From positions 1 to 31,572 of the IMG/VR virus record IMGVR_UViG_3300042546_000405: a DNA stretch of 31,572 bases; one strand, given 5' to 3'. This DNA is from a virus. Below the pieces are notes generated by a model. It was not told the origin of the DNA. It saw only the letters and a list, made by a program, of their open reading frames with translations, and ran no database searches. The translations under genes and the position numbers were made by a program. This document shows positions 18,074-30,345 of the stretch, one piece after another (the stretch's first letter is position 1; each line of letters begins with the position of its first letter).

Positions 18074-19075
18074 ATGAAAGTTGCCCTTATCACTGGAATA
18101 ACAGGACAGGATGGATCGTATCTTGCAGAATTGCTTCTTCAAAAAGGTTATGAAGTTCATGGCATTGTTAGAAGAGCATCCCTTATCAATACTCATCGTA
18201 TTGACCATATCTTTGATTCTATTAATCTCCATTACGGTGATCTTACTGATTCTACCAATCTTGTAAGAGTTATTCAGCAGGTTCAACCAGATGAAATTTA
18301 TAACTTGGGTGCCCAAAGTCATGTAAAAGTGTCTTTTGAGATGCCAGAATATACTGGTATGGTTGATGGTCTTGGAACTCTTCGTATTCTTGAAGCAGTT
18401 CGTCTTTTAGGAATGGAGAAAAAAACAAGAATTTATCAAGCATCTACTTCTGAACTATATGGTCTCGTTCAAGAAGTACCACAAAAAGAAACAACCCCTT
18501 TTTATCCTCGTTCACCTTATGGAGTCGCTAAACTTTATGGATACTGGATTATTAAAAACTACCGAGAATCGTATGGATTACACGCAAGTTCTGGAATTCT
18601 TTTCAATCACGAATCCCCTCGCAGAGGAGAAACTTTTGTCACAAGAAAAATCACTCGCGGATTATCACGAATTTCAACTGGGGAACAGGACGTATTATAT
18701 CTCGGAAATTTGAATGCAAAGCGTGATTGGGGACATGCTAAAGACTTTGTTGAAGCAATGTGGTTAATGCTTCAACAAGATAACCCAGATGACTATGTAA
18801 TCGCTACAGGAAAACAATACTCGGTACGCGAGTTTGTTGAAGAAGCATCACCTTATTTTGGAATGAAAATTGCTTGGGAAGGTGAAGGTTTAGATGAAGT
18901 TGGTATTGATAGACTTACTAAAAAAGTAATAATTAGAGTTAATCCAAAATATTTTAGACCAGCAGAAGTTGAATCTTTGTTGGGAGACCCATCAAAAGCG
19001 AAAGAAAAACTAGGATGGGAACCAAAAATTACATTTGAACAATTAGTTGAGGACATGTGTTTATATGGACAATAA
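18074..19075 (+). CDS. gmd: GDP-mannose 4,6-dehydratase
   Basis: 333 aa, the usual length. The Rossmann motif GITGQDG is at residues 8-14, with NADP-type RRAS at about 33-36. Catalytic STSE (about 124-127) and YGVAK (Y149, K153), and [15 protein letters not shown] further on, are typical of GMD. It converts GDP-mannose to GDP-4-keto-6-deoxymannose, first step to GDP-fucose. Its codons are slightly less AT-rich than the neighbours. The end overlaps fcl by 11 bases. Confidence 0.96.
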
Positions 19076-20003
19076 TTCTAAAATCTTTGTTGCTGGTCAT
19101 AATGGTTTAGTTGGATCTGCAATTGTTAGAAATTTAAAGTCAAAAGGGTATAATAATATTATTACTGCAAATAGAAAACAACTAGATCTTACCGATCAAT
19201 GTCAAGTTGATTTATTCTTCATTGAAAATAAACCAGATTATGTATTTCTTGCTGCAGCAAAAGTAGGTGGTATCGTTGCTAATCGAGATTATCCAGCAGA
19301 TTTTATTCGAGACAATCTTTTAATTCAAACAAATGTAATTGATGCCTCTTACCGATATGGTGTAAAAAAACTGGTATTTTTAGGGTCTTCTTGTATATAT
19401 CCTAAACATCCAACTATTCCGATTACAGAAGATCAATTCCTTACTGGACCATTAGAACCCACAAATGATGCCTACGCAGTTGCAAAAATTGCTGGAATTA
19501 AAATGTGCCAAGCGTATAATAAACAGTATGGATTTAATGCAGTCTCATTAATGCCAACTAATCTTTATGGACCTAATGATAATTTTGACCCAGAAAGTAG
19601 TCACGTTATTCCAGGTATAATGGGGAGAGTTCATAAGGCAAAAATTAATAATGAACCTTTTATAGAGTGTTGGGGAGATGGATCTGCATTACGTGAATTT
19701 TTATTCATTGATGATTTTGCTGAAGCATGTTATACTTGCATGATTAAATATAATAACCCTGAAATTATTAATATCGGTAGTGGCAAGGATATTACAATTA
19801 AAAATCTAACAGAATTAATTTGTAATGTTTTAGATTACACTGGTGAAATTAAATGGGATACTTCTAAACCCAATGGAACCCCAAGAAAAGTGATGAATGT
19901 TGATAAAATTAAATCTCTTGGATGGGATACTAAAACTGGGATTAGACAAGGTTTATACGAAACATACGAATGGTTTAAAAACAATGTCAATGATCGGATT
20001 TAA
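19065..20003 (+). CDS. fcl: GDP-L-fucose synthase (GDP-4-keto-6-deoxymannose epimerase/reductase)
   Basis: 312 aa from [20 protein letters not shown]. GxxGxxG at 11-17, SSC at 108-110, YxxxK as Y137/K141, and FIDDFAEAC are typical of GMER/WcaG. It completes GDP-L-fucose synthesis from the Gmd product. Overlap with gmd and with the following fucosyltransferase shows a single coupled operon. Confidence 0.95.
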
Positions 20004-20781
20004 TTCTTTAGGAAAACTTGGTAGACTTGGAAATCAAATGTTCCAACTTGCGTCTTTAAAAGGTATTGCAAGAAAAAATGATTACAATTATTGTCTCCCT
20101 CCATCTACTAATGTTAATGAATGGGAAGATCACCAATTGTTTGTTCCATTTAAGCTTCATAACGTTATGCTGCTTAATATCCAATATCTTGATGGTAAAA
20201 GACCTACCATTGTAGAAAATGAATTTGGATTTAATGAGGAATTATATAACAATTGCCCAAAGTGGGTGAATCTTCAAGGATACTTTCAATCAGAAAAATA
20301 TTTTAAAGATATTGAAGATGAAATTAGAGAAGATTTTGAATTTCATGACCATATTTTTAATCCAGCAAAGGAAATGATTGAAACTATAGATGATCCAATT
20401 TCTCTTCATATTAGAAGGACTGATTATCTACAACTATCACATCAACATAACAATCTCGATTTAGATTATTATGAAAAGGCATTAGAGCATTTTGATACTG
20501 ATAGAACTGTTGTTATTTTTTCTGATGACCCAGAATGGTGCAAATCACAGACATTATTTGAAAGTGATAGATTTTTAATTGCGGAAGGAAACTCTAATTA
20601 TGTTGACCTTTGTTTGATGACTCTATGTAAATCGCATATTATTGCAAACTCTTCATTCTCTTGGTGGGGTGCATGGTTGGCAAAGAGTGATAAGGTTATT
20701 GCACCAAGTAAATGGTTTGGACCTGATAATCAACACCTAGATACTAAAGATCTTTATTGCCCAGATTGGACTGTAATTTAA
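19984..20781 (+). CDS. Alpha-1,2-fucosyltransferase-like protein (GT11)
   Basis: 265 aa from [20 protein letters not shown] (a start at 19990 is also possible). GRLGNQMFQLAS is the GT11 N-terminal motif, HIRRTDY (142-148) is the GDP-fucose-binding motif, and ANSSFSWWGAWLA near 225 is the third GT11 motif. It should transfer fucose from GDP-fucose in alpha-1,2 linkage, usually to galactose. It begins inside the end of fcl, directly after the donor-making genes. Confidence 0.92.
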   Translation: MSMIGFNSLGKLGRLGNQMFQLASLKGIARKNDYNYCLPPSTNVNEWEDHQLFVPFKLHNVMLLNIQYLDGKRPTIVENEFGFNEELYNNCPKWVNLQGYFQSEKYFKDIEDEIREDFEFHDHIFNPAKEMIETIDDPISLHIRRTDYLQLSHQHNNLDLDYYEKALEHFDTDRTVVIFSDDPEWCKSQTLFESDRFLIAEGNSNYVDLCLMTLCKSHIIANSSFSWWGAWLAKSDKVIAPSKWFGPDNQHLDTKDLYCPDWTVI

Positions 20782-21500
20782 TGAAAGTTGCTGTTATTTT
20801 TATTGGAACGGAGAAGTACCTTAACTTCCTTCCCTCATGGTATGAGAGTTGTGAGCAATTCTTATTGCCAAGCACCGAAAAAAAGTATATAATTTTTACT
20901 GATGGTGAGGTTCCAGAATCTCCAGAAAATGCTATTGTATATAATCAAGAGCATTTAGAGTGGCCATATATCACCCTGTATCGTTTTAAAATGATCCAGA
21001 AATGTTTTGAAGATATTCAAGACTGTGATTGGTTACTTTTTCTAGATGCAGATATGCGAGTAGTAGATACTGTTATTGCAGAAGACTTGTTTGATGATTC
21101 TAAAAAATATATTGGGGTTCATCATCCATGTCATTATTTGAACATGCCACCACACAATGAACTTCCTGGAGCATTTGATGTAACTCCACTATCTAATGCA
21201 TGTGTTTCCGAATCTGATGATTTGTCAATTTATTTTCAAGGATGTTTATGGGGTGGTAAACTTCCTTATGTTCTTGATATGATTCAAGAACTTGACCAAA
21301 AAACAACTGAAGATGAAAAAAATAATATAATTGCTACTTGGCATGATGAAAGTCATTTGAATAAGTTTTATATTGAACATCGGGATGAAGTATTTGTAGC
21401 GTCACCAAGTCTTGCATACCCAGAAGTATTCGCTAAAGTATGTACATTTGAACCAAAAATTGTCCATCTATCTAAAGATAATAGTAAGTATCATGTCTAA
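20781..21500 (+). CDS. GT6-family glycosyltransferase (ABO-like)
   Basis: 239 aa from MKVAVIFIGTEKYLNFLPSW; the stop of GT11 and this ATG share a base (TAATG). FLDADMRV (D89, D91) is the metal/donor DxD. YFQGCLWGG (151-159) and WHDESHLNKF (187-196) match the acceptor/catalytic signature of GT6 (blood-group A/B and alpha-1,3-galactosyltransferases). It is short like microbial GT6 proteins, with no membrane anchor. GT6 enzymes add Gal or GalNAc in alpha-1,3 linkage, often to fucosylated galactose, the product of the preceding gene's family. I recall a GT6 member reported from a cyanophage. Confidence 0.9.
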   Translation: MKVAVIFIGTEKYLNFLPSWYESCEQFLLPSTEKKYIIFTDGEVPESPENAIVYNQEHLEWPYITLYRFKMIQKCFEDIQDCDWLLFLDADMRVVDTVIAEDLFDDSKKYIGVHHPCHYLNMPPHNELPGAFDVTPLSNACVSESDDLSIYFQGCLWGGKLPYVLDMIQELDQKTTEDEKNNIIATWHDESHLNKFYIEHRDEVFVASPSLAYPEVFAKVCTFEPKIVHLSKDNSKYHV

Positions 21501-22197
21501 AATTGCTATGATTTACTCGGGTCAACCGAGACACTTAAAAGAATGTTATGAAAATCATCGTCAAACTTTTTGGGATGCAAATCCAGATTGTGAAATTGAT
21601 GTGTTTGCTCATATTTGGTATGACGAGGCATGGGTAGGAACTTATTTTTGGGACCAATATAAAGACCGTGGGCGTTGGGAAGCAGACCTTAAAGATTTTA
21701 TGGTTGATAACTGGCAACCCAAAGGTCTTGTTTTTGAAGAACCAAAAGAGTTTGAAGCGGAAGATATTTATCCTGATCCTAGATTTCCTCATCCAGTCAA
21801 CAACATTATCTCAATGTTTTATAGCTTGAATGAAGCAAATAATCTCAAGAAAAAGTATGAAGATGATAATGGGTTTAAGTATGATTGTGTTATTCGTTTA
21901 AGAACTGATGAATATTTTAAAACTCCTATTGGTCCCATATCAAACTATGATTTAAATACAGTTAATGTATTGAATGAATGGGCACACATTGAACATGGAA
22001 TCAATGACCACTTTGCATTTGGGTCATCTGAATTGATGGATAAATATCTTGACGTATTTGACAATTTTGTTAAAATATGTGAAATGGGTGCGGAAATCAA
22101 TCCAGAATGTCTTATTGGGTTTAATGCACAAAAAAGACACAATCTTCCCATTACTAAAAACAACTGGAACTATGTACTTTGGAGAGATAAAAAATAA
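21493..22197 (+). CDS. Putative glycosyltransferase, paralogue A
   Basis: 234 aa from MSKIAMIYSGQPRHLKECYE. N-terminal SGQPR, then DVFAHIWYDE, a SMFYSLNEANNLKKKYE block, and YDCVIRLRTDEYF with a DxD-like RTDE. The same ordered blocks occur in the gene at 23570, so the two are paralogues. The pattern fits surface-polysaccharide transferases of phages and bacteria, but I assign no substrate. It overlaps the GT6 gene by 8 bases. Confidence 0.7.
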   Translation: MSKIAMIYSGQPRHLKECYENHRQTFWDANPDCEIDVFAHIWYDEAWVGTYFWDQYKDRGRWEADLKDFMVDNWQPKGLVFEEPKEFEAEDIYPDPRFPHPVNNIISMFYSLNEANNLKKKYEDDNGFKYDCVIRLRTDEYFKTPIGPISNYDLNTVNVLNEWAHIEHGINDHFAFGSSELMDKYLDVFDNFVKICEMGAEINPECLIGFNAQKRHNLPITKNNWNYVLWRDKK

Positions 22198-23570
22198 TGA
22201 CTAAACTTGTTATCTTTGATTTGGATGGCGTCTTAATTGATAGTAAAGATTATCATTACGAAGCATTAAACCAAGCACTTGGGGAAGAATATGCTATCAG
22301 CAGAGAAGAGCATGTTAGCATTTATGATGGTCTTCCCACTAAAGCAAAACTAGAACTTTTGACTAAAAATAAGGGTCTTCCTGTAGACCTTTACGACCAG
22401 ATTTGGAGAGATAAGCAAGAGGCAACTCTCAAAATCTTTAATGATTGTGTTGCAAAAGATTATGAGTTAATGGGTTATTTCCAGCAACTTGTAGATGCAG
22501 GATATAAAATCGCCGTAGCATCTAACAGTATTCGCAATACTGTAAAGATTATTCTTCTGCGTCTTGGTCTTCTTGAGTTTGTTGATATGTACGTCTCTAA
22601 TGAAGACGTTGTTCGCAATAAACCATTCCCAGCAATGTACTGGAAGTGCATGACTGCTCTTGGAGCACTTCCTGCAGATACTGTAATTGTTGAGGATAGT
22701 CATATTGGTCGTCAAGGTGCTCTTGATAGTAAGGCACACTTGGTTCCTGTTGAAGACCGTAAGGATCTTAATCAGGTAAAGATTGACCGCATCAAAAAAA
22801 TTCTAAATGGTACTAAACAAAAAGTTGCGTGGGAGAGCAAGACTATGAATGTTCTTATTCCTATGGCAGGTGCTGGCAGCAGATTTGCTAGTCAGGGTTA
22901 CACCTTCCCCAAACCTTTGATTGAAGTTAAAGGTAAACCAATGATTCAAGTGGTTGTTGAGAACCTGAACATCAAAGCAAATTATACTTTTATTGTTCAG
23001 AAGGAGCATTATGAGAAGTATAATCTCAACTATCTGCTTCCTCTGATTGCTCCTGGATGTAATATTGTCCAAGTTGATGGTCTTACTGAAGGTGCTTGTT
23101 GCACTACTTTACTTGCAAAAGAGTTTATCGATAATGATGAACCCCTTGTAATGGCAAATTCGGACCAGTTTGTTGAATGGGATAGCAACGAAACCCTTTA
23201 TGCATTCCAAAATGGTGAAGTTGATGGCGGTATCGTAACCTTCCCCGCAACCCATCCTAAGTGGTCTTATGCTAAACTTGGTGAAGAAGGTTATGTTGAG
23301 GAAGTTGCTGAGAAGAAACCAATCTCTGAACATGCCACTGTAGGTATTTACTACTGGAAAAAAGGTTCTGATTATGTTAAGTATGCTGAACAAATGATTG
23401 AAAAGAACATTCGGGTTAATAATGAGTTCTATGTTTGTCCAGTATTTAATGAAGCAATCGGTGATGGTAAAAAAATCCGCATCAAAGAGATTGATAGGAA
23501 TGGTATGTGGGGTATTGGAACTCCAGAAGATTTAAATTATTTCCTCGAACATTATAATGGAGAAGTGTGA
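22197..23570 (+). CDS. Fusion: HAD phosphatase + sugar nucleotidyltransferase
   Basis: 457 aa, two domains. Residues 1-205 are a HAD hydrolase: FDLDGVLID (nucleophile D8, D10), VASNS at about 107-111, and EDSHIGRQGA near 166. Residues 217-457 are an NTP-transferase domain starting MNVLIPMAGAGSRFASQGYT with FPKPL (K239) as the G-x-G-x-R and lysine motifs; NSDQF near 319 supplies the metal Asp. A short linker (KQKVAWESKT) joins them. The fusion suggests sequential steps, dephosphorylating a sugar bisphosphate and then activating the sugar-1-phosphate, as in heptose or similar pathways; the sugar is unknown. TAATG overlap upstream, TGATG overlap downstream. Confidence 0.88.
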   Translation: MTKLVIFDLDGVLIDSKDYHYEALNQALGEEYAISREEHVSIYDGLPTKAKLELLTKNKGLPVDLYDQIWRDKQEATLKIFNDCVAKDYELMGYFQQLVDAGYKIAVASNSIRNTVKIILLRLGLLEFVDMYVSNEDVVRNKPFPAMYWKCMTALGALPADTVIVEDSHIGRQGALDSKAHLVPVEDRKDLNQVKIDRIKKILNGTKQKVAWESKTMNVLIPMAGAGSRFASQGYTFPKPLIEVKGKPMIQVVVENLNIKANYTFIVQKEHYEKYNLNYLLPLIAPGCNIVQVDGLTEGACCTTLLAKEFIDNDEPLVMANSDQFVEWDSNETLYAFQNGEVDGGIVTFPATHPKWSYAKLGEEGYVEEVAEKKPISEHATVGIYYWKKGSDYVKYAEQMIEKNIRVNNEFYVCPVFNEAIGDGKKIRIKEIDRNGMWGIGTPEDLNYFLEHYNGEV

Positions 23571-24316
23571 TGAAAGTAGCATTAGCATTTTTTGGGCAAC
23601 CTAGATTTGTTGATAATCTAGAAATTATCAACACATACAAAGAAGTAATTCTTAATCGATATGATACTGATGTATTCGGTCACATGTGGTGGCAAGAAAA
23701 TGGTGGAGAATATGATTACTCTTCTTGGTCTAAGATAAACAAATGCCCTGTTTCTGAGGATGCCCCAGAAATTATTACCAATAATTATTCTCCTTTAATT
23801 TTAGGTATTGAAGATCCAAAGACTTTTGAATTGCCACCTAAAGCTAAAAAATTTATTGATGAGAAGTTTACTGATAAGCATCCTGCTAGACAAATATATG
23901 GAGAAAGTGGCAACCATTGGAATCCTAAAAACTATAGCAATGTAATGTCACAATTGTATTCTATTAAATCTGTTGCTAATATTGTTAAATCATACGCAGA
24001 AGATACAAATACCAGTTACGATTTTATTGTACTAGCAAGGTATGATACCGTACTTCTTAATTTCCCAGATCTTAATACTTGTGATAAGTATAAGTTTTAT
24101 CTTCCAGGACATCATCCTAGATTCCCTGATACAATCCAATTCTTTGGTCCAAAATATTTGACTTGGGCACTTAATGCTTTTGATGATATTGAAGATGTAT
24201 ATGAAGATATTTGGGAACCTTCTCCCGAAGCATTTAAAATGGGTTCATTTTTAAAGTGGTTTGAACACTCTGATCTTGCTCCTTGTTCTATGGATGCTGC
24301 TTGTATCCGAGGTTAA
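23570..24316 (+). CDS. Putative glycosyltransferase, paralogue B
   Basis: 248 aa from MKVALAFFGQPRFVDNLEI; ATG overlaps the previous stop (TGATG). It shares FGQPR, TDVFGHMWW, SQLYSIKSVANIVKSYA and YDFIVLARYDTV with paralogue A. Putative surface-glycan transferase; ends CSMDAACIRG. Confidence 0.7.
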   Translation: MKVALAFFGQPRFVDNLEIINTYKEVILNRYDTDVFGHMWWQENGGEYDYSSWSKINKCPVSEDAPEIITNNYSPLILGIEDPKTFELPPKAKKFIDEKFTDKHPARQIYGESGNHWNPKNYSNVMSQLYSIKSVANIVKSYAEDTNTSYDFIVLARYDTVLLNFPDLNTCDKYKFYLPGHHPRFPDTIQFFGPKYLTWALNAFDDIEDVYEDIWEPSPEAFKMGSFLKWFEHSDLAPCSMDAACIRG

Positions 24317-24318
24317 TT

Positions 24319-24786
24319 ATGAAAATCATTGCACATAGAGGAAATATTGATGGTCCCAATCCTTTAACGGAAAACCATCCAGATACTATTGATAATGCAA
24401 TATCAATGGGATTTGATGTTGAAATTGATATTAGATATGATACATTTGATAATAAATTTTATCTAGGTCATGATGATCCACAATATGTGGTTACTCCATA
24501 TTGGTTAGCTGAACGTATGGAAAACCTGTGGATTCATTGTAAAAATATTGAAGCACTTTATCATTTTGTTCATAAAACTGGTGGATATAATTATTTTTGG
24601 CATCAAACAGATGATTTTACGCTAACCAGTAAAAACTATATTTGGACATATCCTGGACAAACCTATACACCATCTAGTATAATTGTTATGCCAGAAAATT
24701 ATATTAAACGAGAAGAATTAAATACTTTGATTGCTTATGATTGTTATGGTGTTTGTACAGATTATCCTCAAAAAATAAAAAAATGA
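24319..24786 (+). CDS. GDPD/PLC-like phosphodiesterase-fold protein
   Basis: 155 aa from MKIIAHRGNIDGPN. IAHRG, TENHPDTIDNAISMGFDVEID and LGHDDPQ match the N-terminal active-site region of glycerophosphodiester phosphodiesterases (the two His plus Glu/Asp metal ligands). It is shorter than cellular GlpQ/UgpQ (about 250 aa), so the barrel may be minimal or partly degenerate. Small members like this occur in phage and bacterial polysaccharide clusters. It lies 2 bases after paralogue B and overlaps the next gene (ATGA). Confidence 0.75.
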   Translation: MKIIAHRGNIDGPNPLTENHPDTIDNAISMGFDVEIDIRYDTFDNKFYLGHDDPQYVVTPYWLAERMENLWIHCKNIEALYHFVHKTGGYNYFWHQTDDFTLTSKNYIWTYPGQTYTPSSIIVMPENYIKREELNTLIAYDCYGVCTDYPQKIKK

Positions 24787-25733
24787 AAATTACATTAGTT
24801 GGACCAGGCATTATGCCTATTCCCCCTACTGGGTGGGGTGCAGTAGAAATATTAATTTGGGATACTAAACTTGCCTTAGAAGAACTGGGGCATGAAGTTC
24901 AAATTGTAAATACTAAAGATTACAGGCAAATTATTAATGAAATAAATGCATTTGTACCTGATTTTGTGCATGTGCATTATGATGAATTTATTAATCTTTG
25001 TCCATACATCCAATATCCATCTGCAATTACAAGTCATTTTGGATATTTAGAGAGACCTCAAATGTTTAATGGTTATGCAAATGTTGCCAATCAATTTGCT
25101 TCTATTAAACCAAATATTTTTTGTTTATCTGAAGGAATCTCTAAGGTATATCAAATAATGTTTAATATTCCTAAAGAGAATCTTTTTATTACTCCAAACG
25201 GAGTTAATATTAATCAATTTAAAGTCTCAGAATCTCCAAAATACCCAGACAGATCAATCTATCTTGCAAAGATTGATTATAGAAAACGTCAACATCTATT
25301 CCAGTCTATTGATAGTCTTTGGTTTGCTGGAAATCTTGCTGATAGTAGATTTAATACTAACAAGAACTATTTGGGTGAATGGTCTAAAGAAACTCTATAC
25401 AATGAACTCACCGATTATGGTAACCTTGTTCTTCTATCTGATGGGGAGGCACATCCATTAGTTTGTATGGAAGCTCTTGCCGCAGGTCTTGGTGTAGTAG
25501 TATGTGAATGGGGCAAAGCAAATCTCGATCAATCTAAACCATTTATTACTATTATTCCAGAAGACAAAATTGATGATTTAGAATACATTGAAGAAAAAAT
25601 TGTAAAAAATAGAGAGTATTCAATTTCTCATCGGGAAGAAATTTTAGAATATTCTAAAAACTTTGATTGGAAAGAAATCTTACAAAAATATTATATTCCT
25701 AGTATAGTTAAAGTTATTGAAAATCATGGATAA
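24783..25733 (+). CDS. GT4-type glycosyltransferase (GT-B fold)
   Basis: 316 aa from MKITLVGPGIMPIPPTGWGA. The N-terminal GWGAVE loop fits GT4 (PIPPTGWGAVE). Central LFITPNGVNINQF, and C-terminal LSDGEAHPLVCMEALAAGLG with the EX7E-type glutamates, are classic group-1 transferase motifs. The donor is unknown, probably a nucleotide sugar. The ATG overlaps the GDPD stop by 4 bases (ATGA). Confidence 0.88.
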   Translation: MKITLVGPGIMPIPPTGWGAVEILIWDTKLALEELGHEVQIVNTKDYRQIINEINAFVPDFVHVHYDEFINLCPYIQYPSAITSHFGYLERPQMFNGYANVANQFASIKPNIFCLSEGISKVYQIMFNIPKENLFITPNGVNINQFKVSESPKYPDRSIYLAKIDYRKRQHLFQSIDSLWFAGNLADSRFNTNKNYLGEWSKETLYNELTDYGNLVLLSDGEAHPLVCMEALAAGLGVVVCEWGKANLDQSKPFITIIPEDKIDDLEYIEEKIVKNREYSISHREEILEYSKNFDWKEILQKYYIPSIVKVIENHG

Positions 25734-29167: not shown

Positions 29168-29866
29168 ATGCTCATCGATCTTCACAATTTTTTTAAACAC
29201 TTTGATGAAAATAATCCAAAGCATGTTGCTGCGGTAGAACAATTTGAAAAAGATTTGCTTTTAAAGGCACACGAATTGATGCAAGACGAAGCAAATTGGG
29301 TAAGGATTTTTAGAACAAAAGAGAACAAACCCCAAGCAACTATTTTACCAGTTCCTTTTTATCCACAAACAGATAACTATAGAGATGCAAATAGAACCTG
29401 CAACTCTTCTGCTTGTGCAATGTGTCTTGAGTATTTCAAACCTGGCACACTAAAAGGACCTAAGGGCGATGACGCCTATGTACAAAAAGTTTTTTCAATT
29501 GGTGACACAACTGATCACCTGGTTCAAACCAAAGTTCTTGCGTCATACGGTATTAAATCCAGTTTTTCCTACAGCCTTACTTTTGCTGATCTTGATAGAG
29601 AGCTTGCCGCTGGTAGACCTGTTGTTATTGGCATTCTTCATCGCGGGACTTTATCTAATCCCACAGGAGGACACATGGTAGTGGTGATTGGTAAGACACC
29701 TTCTGGTGATTATGTCGTTAATGACCCTTATGGATCATTAAATGATGGATATACTGGTTCCGTGAACAATGGTAAGGGTGCTGTTTACAAACGTTCCGAA
29801 TTATCTCGTAGATGGTGCCCTAAAGGTAATGATGGTTGGGGTAGAATTTTTGATGTAAAAAAGTAG
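29168..29866 (+). CDS. C39-like peptidase domain of the endolysin (zero frame)
   Basis: 232 aa from MLIDLHNFFKHFDENNPKHV; a start at 29147 would lie at the predicted late transcript start. Residues about 60-230 look like a papain-like C39 domain: FYPQTDNYRDANRTCNSSAC (catalytic C78), GGHMVVVIGK (H169), VVNDPYGS (D186). Such domains occur in phage and bacterial wall enzymes as peptidases or amidases. The frame ends GRIFDVKK-TAG at a slippery heptamer; the -1 frame carries a lysozyme domain. Without frameshifting this product is the peptidase domain alone. Confidence 0.85.
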   Translation: MLIDLHNFFKHFDENNPKHVAAVEQFEKDLLLKAHELMQDEANWVRIFRTKENKPQATILPVPFYPQTDNYRDANRTCNSSACAMCLEYFKPGTLKGPKGDDAYVQKVFSIGDTTDHLVQTKVLASYGIKSSFSYSLTFADLDRELAAGRPVVIGILHRGTLSNPTGGHMVVVIGKTPSGDYVVNDPYGSLNDGYTGSVNNGKGAVYKRSELSRRWCPKGNDGWGRIFDVKK

Positions 29867-29908
29867 AATCAACATCACAATCAAAAATCCCTCAATGTGG
29901 TGTTGATT
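29857..29908 (+). promoter_or_regulatory. Candidate programmed -1 ribosomal frameshift signal
   Basis: Slippery heptamer A AAA AAG (29857-29863) in the correct phase of the peptidase frame, followed at once by TAG. Three bases later starts a 12-bp stem, AATCAACATCAC (29867-29878) with GTGGTGTTGATT (29897-29908), 11 Watson-Crick pairs and one G-U, with an 18-nt loop. A AAA AAG is the dnaX-type bacterial heptamer. The short spacing means 2-4 basal pairs would have to open. Confidence 0.7.
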
Positions 29909-30345
29909 TAATTAGAGAGTTTGAGGGATGTCACTTGAATGCTTATCCAGACCCACTAACTGGTGGACTTCCAATTACAATTGGTTGGGGTTCTACTAAA
30001 GATTTTGATGGTAAATCTTTTAAATTGGGTAGAAAAATTACTCAAGAATATGCAGATAAATTATTGTTATTTGACCTTGAACAAAGATTTCTTCCTTCAT
30101 TGCAAAAAATACCTTATTGGAGCGAAATGAATGACAACCAACGTGGAGCACTTCTCAGCTTTGCTTATAATCTCGGTGCTGGCTTCTATGGTAACAGCAA
30201 TTTCAATACTATTACCCGCAATCTACGTGAGAAGAATTGGAAAGCAATCCCAAAAACATTAGAGATGTATCGTAATCCTGGTAGTAAAGTTGAAGCAGGA
30301 TTACTTAGAAGAAGAAAAGCGGAGGGTAAACTCTGGGTTTCTTAA
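29863..30345 (+). CDS. GH24 lysozyme domain of the endolysin (reached by -1 frameshift)
   Basis: 160 aa counted from the shift site; the fused protein would be 392 aa. LIREFEGCHLNAYPDPLTGG has the catalytic Glu (E253 of the fusion, codon 29923) and the Asp/Thr region PITIGWG of T4-lysozyme-like GH24 muramidases; NDNQRGALLSFAYNLGAGFY and LLRRRKAEGKLW follow. The frame is open from 29854 but has no ATG or GTG. The first TTG (29935) lies after the catalytic Glu, so independent initiation would give an inactive fragment. It hydrolyses peptidoglycan for host lysis. It ends tail-to-tail with the minus-strand gene, sharing 2 bases. Confidence 0.85.
   Translation, partial: VESTSQSKIPQCGVDLIREFEGCHLNAYPDPLTGGLPITIGWGSTKDFDGKSFKLGRKITQEYADKLLLFDLEQRFLPSLQKIPYWSEMNDNQRGALLSFAYNLGAGFYGNSNFNTITRNLREKNWKAIPKTLEMYRNPGSKVEAGLLRRRKAEGKLWVS

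Follow-up and report, generated by a model that had tools for sequence, protein, structure and literature searches.

A cyanophage endolysin gene with a predicted dnaX-type programmed −1 ribosomal frameshift between its peptidase and lysozyme parts

Reading frames and domains at the endolysin locus

The window, i.e. the whole stretch of DNA analyzed here, corresponds to a 31,572-base virus record with matches to cyanophage-type families (primase, both ribonucleotide reductase subunits, glycosyltransferases, and peroxiredoxin). Its endolysin locus comprises a peptidase frame and, shifted by −1, a lysozyme frame (Table 1). As described in the original prediction, the peptidase frame ends with GTA (29855–57) AAA (29858–60) AAG (29861–63) TAG (29864–66), so that an in-phase A_AAA_AAG heptamer is followed immediately by the stop. 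From 29854 onward, the −1 frame has no stop until 30343–30345 and contains a complete GH24 lysozyme (Pfam Phage_lysozyme, PF00959, 1.4e-24), which bears out the proposed continuation into this domain. Because the Glu codon at 29923 precedes the TTG at 29935, the first possible start (the original prediction called it the only one), no ordinary start yields a Glu-containing lysozyme. A slip at the heptamer would give a product of 392 aa (232 + 160, computed from the window sequence), the length originally given.

Table 1 Features of the endolysin locus in the window
Feature	Positions	Strand	Remarks
Zero-frame ORF, N-terminal domain (~55 aa) and C39-like cysteine peptidase	29168–29866	+	232 aa and TAG
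Slippery heptamer A_AAA_AAG	29857–29863	+	in phase with the peptidase frame
−1 frame, linker and GH24 lysozyme	29863–30345	+	160 aa and TAA; no start codon before Glu
Zero-frame stop TAG	29864–29866	+	directly adjoins the heptamer
Stem, 5' arm	29866–29879	+	core counted from 29868
Stem, 3' arm	29896–29909	+	inside the lysozyme coding sequence
Catalytic-type Glu codon (LIREFEG)	29923–29925	+	Glu, Asp, and Thr invariant in 8 sequences
TTG, first ATG/GTG/TTG of the lysozyme frame	29935–29937	+	3' of the Glu codon

Residues 60–188 of the peptidase ORF match Pfam Peptidase_C39_2 (PF13529, 3.7e-13), and Cys78, His169, and Asp186 are invariant across the 8 sequences compared; these residues presumably have the roles known from C39-like peptidases, and Glu, Asp, and Thr in the GH24 domain those known from T4 lysozyme. 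Among 58 related sequences, differences within the first 20 codons of the lysozyme domain fall at codon positions 1, 2, and 3 in proportions of 26, 11, and 63%, and by this comparison of sequences the −1 frame is under purifying selection. Elsewhere in the window, the ORFs at 18074–25730 overlap in series, and TTG is the first start in several of them; their matches are to a nucleotide-sugar epimerase (two adjacent ORFs) and glycosyltransferases.

Heptamer, start codons, and stem-loop at related junctions

Viral contigs were fetched by alignments or proteins of one or both domains, with peptide patterns located away from the junction. Since each viral scan comprised the best ≤80 loci, best first, close relatives are over-represented. 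Near-identical junctions were counted separately, and the junction counts are not independent because the junctions are related. Among the matches listed, 223 of 279 sequences (the window and 278 loci) had C39 followed by GH24, and these represented 147 distinct junctions. The lysozyme lay in the −1 frame in 108 of them, in the same frame in 29 (13 fusions and 16 separate genes), and in the +1 frame with a gap in 10.

The 108 −1 junctions among the matches listed comprised 34 with a heptamer and no ATG, GTG, or TTG before the Glu codon, 29 with a heptamer and only GTG or TTG, eight with a heptamer and an ATG, and 37 with an ATG and no heptamer; none had neither heptamer nor ATG. Sixteen of the 37 are separate genes with a gap, and all 21 overlapping −1 junctions without a heptamer carry an ATG (same matches). 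Homologs with an ATG before the Glu codon, which the original prediction had named as evidence against it, thus do exist (37/108 without a heptamer and eight with one), but the window has no such ATG. Together with an ATG right at the stop in 14 rows of the C39 tree described below and the combination of ATGA and heptamer in phage S-SRM01 (GCA AAA AAG CAA TGA), these 37 junctions would agree with stop and restart, in which ribosomes reinitiating close to the peptidase stop would translate the lysozyme by itself, as in the relatives with an ATGA overlap. However, the 34 heptamer junctions listed offer no start before Glu and the 29 others only scattered GTG or TTG codons, and reinitiation requires neither A_AAA_AAG nor a stem. 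We consider this explanation very improbable.

An in-phase X_XXY_YYZ heptamer at the peptidase stop was found in all 63 ATG-less −1 junctions among the matches listed (~1.7 expected), namely A_AAA_AAG in 58, U_UUU_UUU in three, and C_CCA_AAG in two. With the ATG-bearing cases included, the 71 junction heptamers listed were AAAAAAG (66), TTTTTTT (3), and CCCAAAG (2). Elsewhere in the related peptidase ORFs, X_XXY_YYZ occurred at 168 of 31,145 codon positions and in-phase AAAAAAG at none of these 31,145. The zero-frame stop followed the heptamer directly in 57 of the 71 listed junctions, one codon later in 11, and two codons later in three. The codon holding the first heptamer base was GTA (32), GCA (31), GTT (3), CTC (2), or GAA, ACA, or ATA (one each) in the same 71 junctions; GCA and GTA make up 39% of the Ala and 29% of the Val codons in related peptidase ORFs, a comparison in which the final A before AAAAAAG belongs to the definition of the heptamer.

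The site is also present in named phages. In Synechococcus phage S-PM2, the junction reads GCA AAA AAG TAA with the lysozyme in −1, identically in AJ630128 and LN828717, and the record of a deletion mutant is identical over 1787 bases. Its annotation lists a hypothetical protein and, starting past the Glu codon, a 72-aa 'putative lysin' (locus L002, 1557–1775), and the frameshift is unmarked. S-CAM7 has GTT TTT TTT CCA CAG TAG, a heptamer of the T_TTT_TTT type with a hairpin of its own, again with the lysozyme in −1. The annotated 'lysin' of S-CAM7 (L007, 1359–1631) likewise starts past the catalytic Glu. The family phrog_10457 (95 positions, endolysin) may have been built on such shortened lysin calls.

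In distant lineages, two other heptamers replace A_AAA_AAG. The C_CCA_AAG junctions (L129/L131) contain no run longer than three and have a hairpin. These junctions also bear on slippage of the RNA polymerase on the A run, which would produce a mixed mRNA pool. Six As are short for polymerase slippage; the stem, the phase, and the G that follows the run all fit ribosomes, and L129/L131 lack a longer run. Such slippage is used by the dnaX gene of Thermus thermophilus, according to an excerpt of a review (PMC5009743), but we regard it as very improbable here and infer that the ribosome rather than the RNA polymerase slips.

A clear Shine-Dalgarno stimulator ~10 nt upstream of the heptamer was not convincingly found in 58 sequences. 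A conserved TGGGGNAGA, which ends 11 nt before the heptamer, encodes WGR, and its Arg codon is AGR in 47 of 58 sequences vs 66% of all Arg codons.

Downstream of the heptamer, the window forms a hairpin with a 16-nt loop. The stem-loop of the original prediction is thus present, but it has 14 contiguous pairs including G-U rather than 12. RNA folding gave −16.2 kcal/mol (z = −4.75), which none of 200 shuffles equaled. Fully extended, the stem starts 2 nt past the heptamer, the usual spacing being 5–8 nt. Among the matches listed, the best stems of 69 of 71 junctions start 2–8 nt past the heptamer, mostly at 4–7 nt, with starts at 3 nt and at 12 nt occurring once each. A single stem within 12 nt of the heptamer was found in 71/71 junctions (median of the best stem, 10 pairs; search minimum, 6). 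This best stem was equaled by at most two of 200 synonymous randomizations in 36 of 71 junctions (mean 9.2/200), with synonymous codons drawn evenly and not by usage. Further folding z-scores were −3.10 for S-PM2, −4.14 for L013, −3.05 for L072, −5.28 for S-CAM7, and −2.70 for L129.

The arms occur mainly in three registers 3 nt apart. In a fixed register, 53 distinct arm pairs formed 10.79 of 12 pairs, vs 8.12 of 12 with swapped partners and the register chosen anew (maximum 8.96 of 2000 swaps), and sliding the arms by 1–3 nt left 1.8–6.1 pairs. Register 9 alone showed no significant difference (10.27 observed vs 9.83 swapped, maximum 10.4), whereas the other two registers gave 10.95 vs 10.34 (maximum 10.75) and 11.06 vs 10.30 (maximum 10.83). 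Because the register-9 swaps reach the observed pairing, the covariation comes from the two remaining families and from the between-family contrast. Three of 58 core junctions form only 5, 6, or 8 of 12 pairs. When contiguous sequence was aligned with MAFFT, the share of paired cells in the named stem was 92.0% in an alignment of 20 sequences and 93.5% in one of 18. Stem covariation was 0.202 vs 0.120 and 0.360 vs 0.246, values reached by 0 of 500 shuffles in either alignment, and relatedness of the sequences can inflate this result. Weaker measures were reached by 11 of 500 shuffles in the first alignment (double-change pairs, pair types) and by 68 of 500 in the second (pair types). RNAalifold recovered the stem cores with 9 and 11 pairs. 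Judged by these comparisons, the stem arms change together between phage families.

The eight listed junctions that combine a heptamer with an ATG/GTG overlapping the stop mostly have weak stems (6–10 of 12 pairs), and five of them rank 52–69 in the stem randomization. No notable fold was found in the start-overlap junctions of S-SRM01 (z = +0.99) and L035 (z = −1.36). The heptamer in such junctions may be a relic or may act together with reinitiation.

A sequencing or assembly error, or a decayed gene, would imply that one A was lost from an in-frame fusion with seven As. Such fusions do occur in relatives: L040, a type found in four contigs, and L198 are in frame with seven As. The original prediction had proposed this comparison as a check for error, and these two are the only distinct junctions of the kind among the matches listed. 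Against an error stand the 66 distinct A_AAA_AAG junctions (among the matches listed) from many metagenomes, the identity of the two deposited S-PM2 genomes, which were possibly not sequenced independently there, the C_CCA_AAG cases without a long run, the covariation of the stem, and the purifying selection on the −1 frame. We give this explanation almost no credence. Conservation of the heptamer, the stop, and the covarying stem in homologs supports the programmed frameshift originally proposed.

Alternative arrangements of the two domains

Several relatives combine the domains in other ways. Two of them, L130 and L136, are fused in frame and retain GTA AAA AAG together with the stem (z = −1.90 and −2.80 for two stretches of L130, −3.74 for L136), and in both a −1 stop follows after one further codon. 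The ACG-2014f phages also have an in-frame fusion (three records read; 45 records match the junction stretch) with GCA AAA AAG TCTGA, a hairpin 5 nt past the heptamer (z = −2.74 for L008 and −1.97 for L275), and a −1 stop after one further codon beyond the heptamer. These two lineages appear to have an inverted polarity, in which the long form would be the default and a slip would give the short one. L040 keeps the stem (z = −4.54); an AlphaFold model of this in-frame relative (7 sequences) had a pLDDT of 68.3 and a pTM of 0.42 and proves little, because the junction residues 231–238 form one of six stretches that score below 50.

Not every relative would give two products, because seven distinct plain in-frame fusions (L170–L178) have no heptamer; these fusions show that the two-form output is not indispensable. 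In reversed fusions, GH24 precedes the N-terminal domain and C39 (S-CREM1, L004; L048, L057, L060, L065, and L067). All six distinct sequences, five of which are close kin, have AGGAG 7–8 nt before an in-frame ATG at the start of the N-domain-C39 part, and an internal start giving a peptidase-only protein is possible. DSL-LC02 and DSL-LC03 have separate genes. Among distant phages, the N-terminal domain and C39 of S-N03 (L273) continue in frame into a different C-terminal domain, which lacks a GH24 match and which we take to be GH19-like, and S-CREM2 (L274) has C39 followed, with an ATGA overlap, by the N-terminal domain and the same domain as in S-N03.

A minimum of 23 changes is required to explain the eight layouts on the C39 tree (148 rows). 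Occurrences of the frameshift layout are scattered across this tree (18 changes, 8 of which are forced by well-supported branches), and good support is limited to 31 of the 145 inner branches. Row L174, labeled SEP, is really a fusion ended by the contig end.

In the relatives with separate genes (L005, L006, L134–L167, and L199–L223), 44 of 45 distinct sequences of the N-domain-GH24 gene carry GGA or AGA AAA AAG ~135 nt past the start of this gene. The position corresponds to the border between N-terminal domain and linker, and the sequences are close kin. In 37 of these 44, one further codon separates the heptamer from a −1 stop, and wherever the second codon past the heptamer encodes Ser (32 cases), it is AGT, vs AGT in 21% of Ser codons there. 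A stem at this site did not exceed synonymous randomization by codon usage (median 57.5, mean 48.4 of 100). The site may be a second dnaX-type signal giving the bare N-terminal domain.

Proposed mechanism and comparison with known systems

Based on these data, the cyanophage endolysin gene very likely uses a dnaX-type programmed −1 ribosomal frameshift. Ribosomes would read the N-terminal domain and the C39-like peptidase and halt at TAG, yielding the 232-aa protein. Some ribosomes, delayed by the downstream stem, would slip back one base on A_AAA_AAG, with both Lys-tRNAs presumably slipping together, bypass the TAG, and add the GH24 lysozyme via the linker to give the 392-aa protein. The slip efficiency would fix the ratio of the two products from one mRNA, and the frameshift would thus set the ratio of peptidase-only to peptidase-lysozyme endolysin.

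The two proteins presumably work together, e.g. in a mixed assembly where some subunits have no lysozyme. A mix of peptidase-only and bifunctional subunits is the likeliest use, because the different devices of the relatives would yield the same pair. We see a roughly even chance that the family has been selected for a set ratio of GH24-free to GH24-bearing protein while swapping the devices, with mixed assembly on the shared N-terminal domain. The devices swapped would be a −1 frameshift with a zero-frame stop or with inverted polarity, an internal start in the reversed fusions, and possibly a second frameshift in the N-domain-lysozyme gene of the relatives with separate genes.

Phage frameshifting is known mainly from structural genes; if our reading is true, a lysis enzyme of marine and freshwater cyanophages is recoded into two wall-cutting products. 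This makes it testable whether lysis requires a set peptidase:lysozyme ratio, would correct the annotation of S-PM2 and S-CAM7, and provides a natural set of interchanging solutions for studying the origin and inversion of frameshift signals.

A frameshift in an endolysin of this type had been called unfamiliar at the outset, and a keyword search of the open-access literature found no earlier report for this gene among the matches listed. The words 'endolysin' and 'cyanophage' are absent from the first 300,000 characters of the review PMC5009743. The PRFect paper (PMC10885494, in part) refers to Shearman 1994 when it counts lysins among genes with a known frameshift. The lysin of that study shares overlapping lysin frames with the cyanophage gene, but its products are described as a lysozyme-like lysin and a holin-like protein (PMC3111421, in part). 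The split lysin of Lactobacillus phage Sabazios also has two overlapping ORFs for which programmed slippage was considered, and no slippery site was found according to an excerpt of that report (PMC7260188). In mycobacteriophage Ms6, one gene likewise gives a long and a short endolysin (Lysin384/Lysin241) but, in the portion of PMC3111421 consulted, by internal initiation; the same device may serve the reversed cyanophage fusions, whereas the window does not use it.

A close likeness is to E. coli dnaX (tau/gamma), with A_AAA_AAG, a downstream stem-loop, and a short and a long form with a common N-terminus. It differs in gene and purpose, and the cyanophage site is without a clear upstream Shine-Dalgarno stimulator. 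The relatives with inverted polarity would resemble E. coli dnaX in having the long form as the default product and the short form as the product of a slip, and a polarity like that of the window has been proposed for dnaX of a few bacteria (PMC5009743, in part). In tail chaperones (lambda G/GT) and other capsid or tail proteins, a phage slip also adds a C-terminal part to some of the products (PMC5009743, in part); those are structural or assembly genes, whereas both parts of the cyanophage protein are wall-cutting enzymes.
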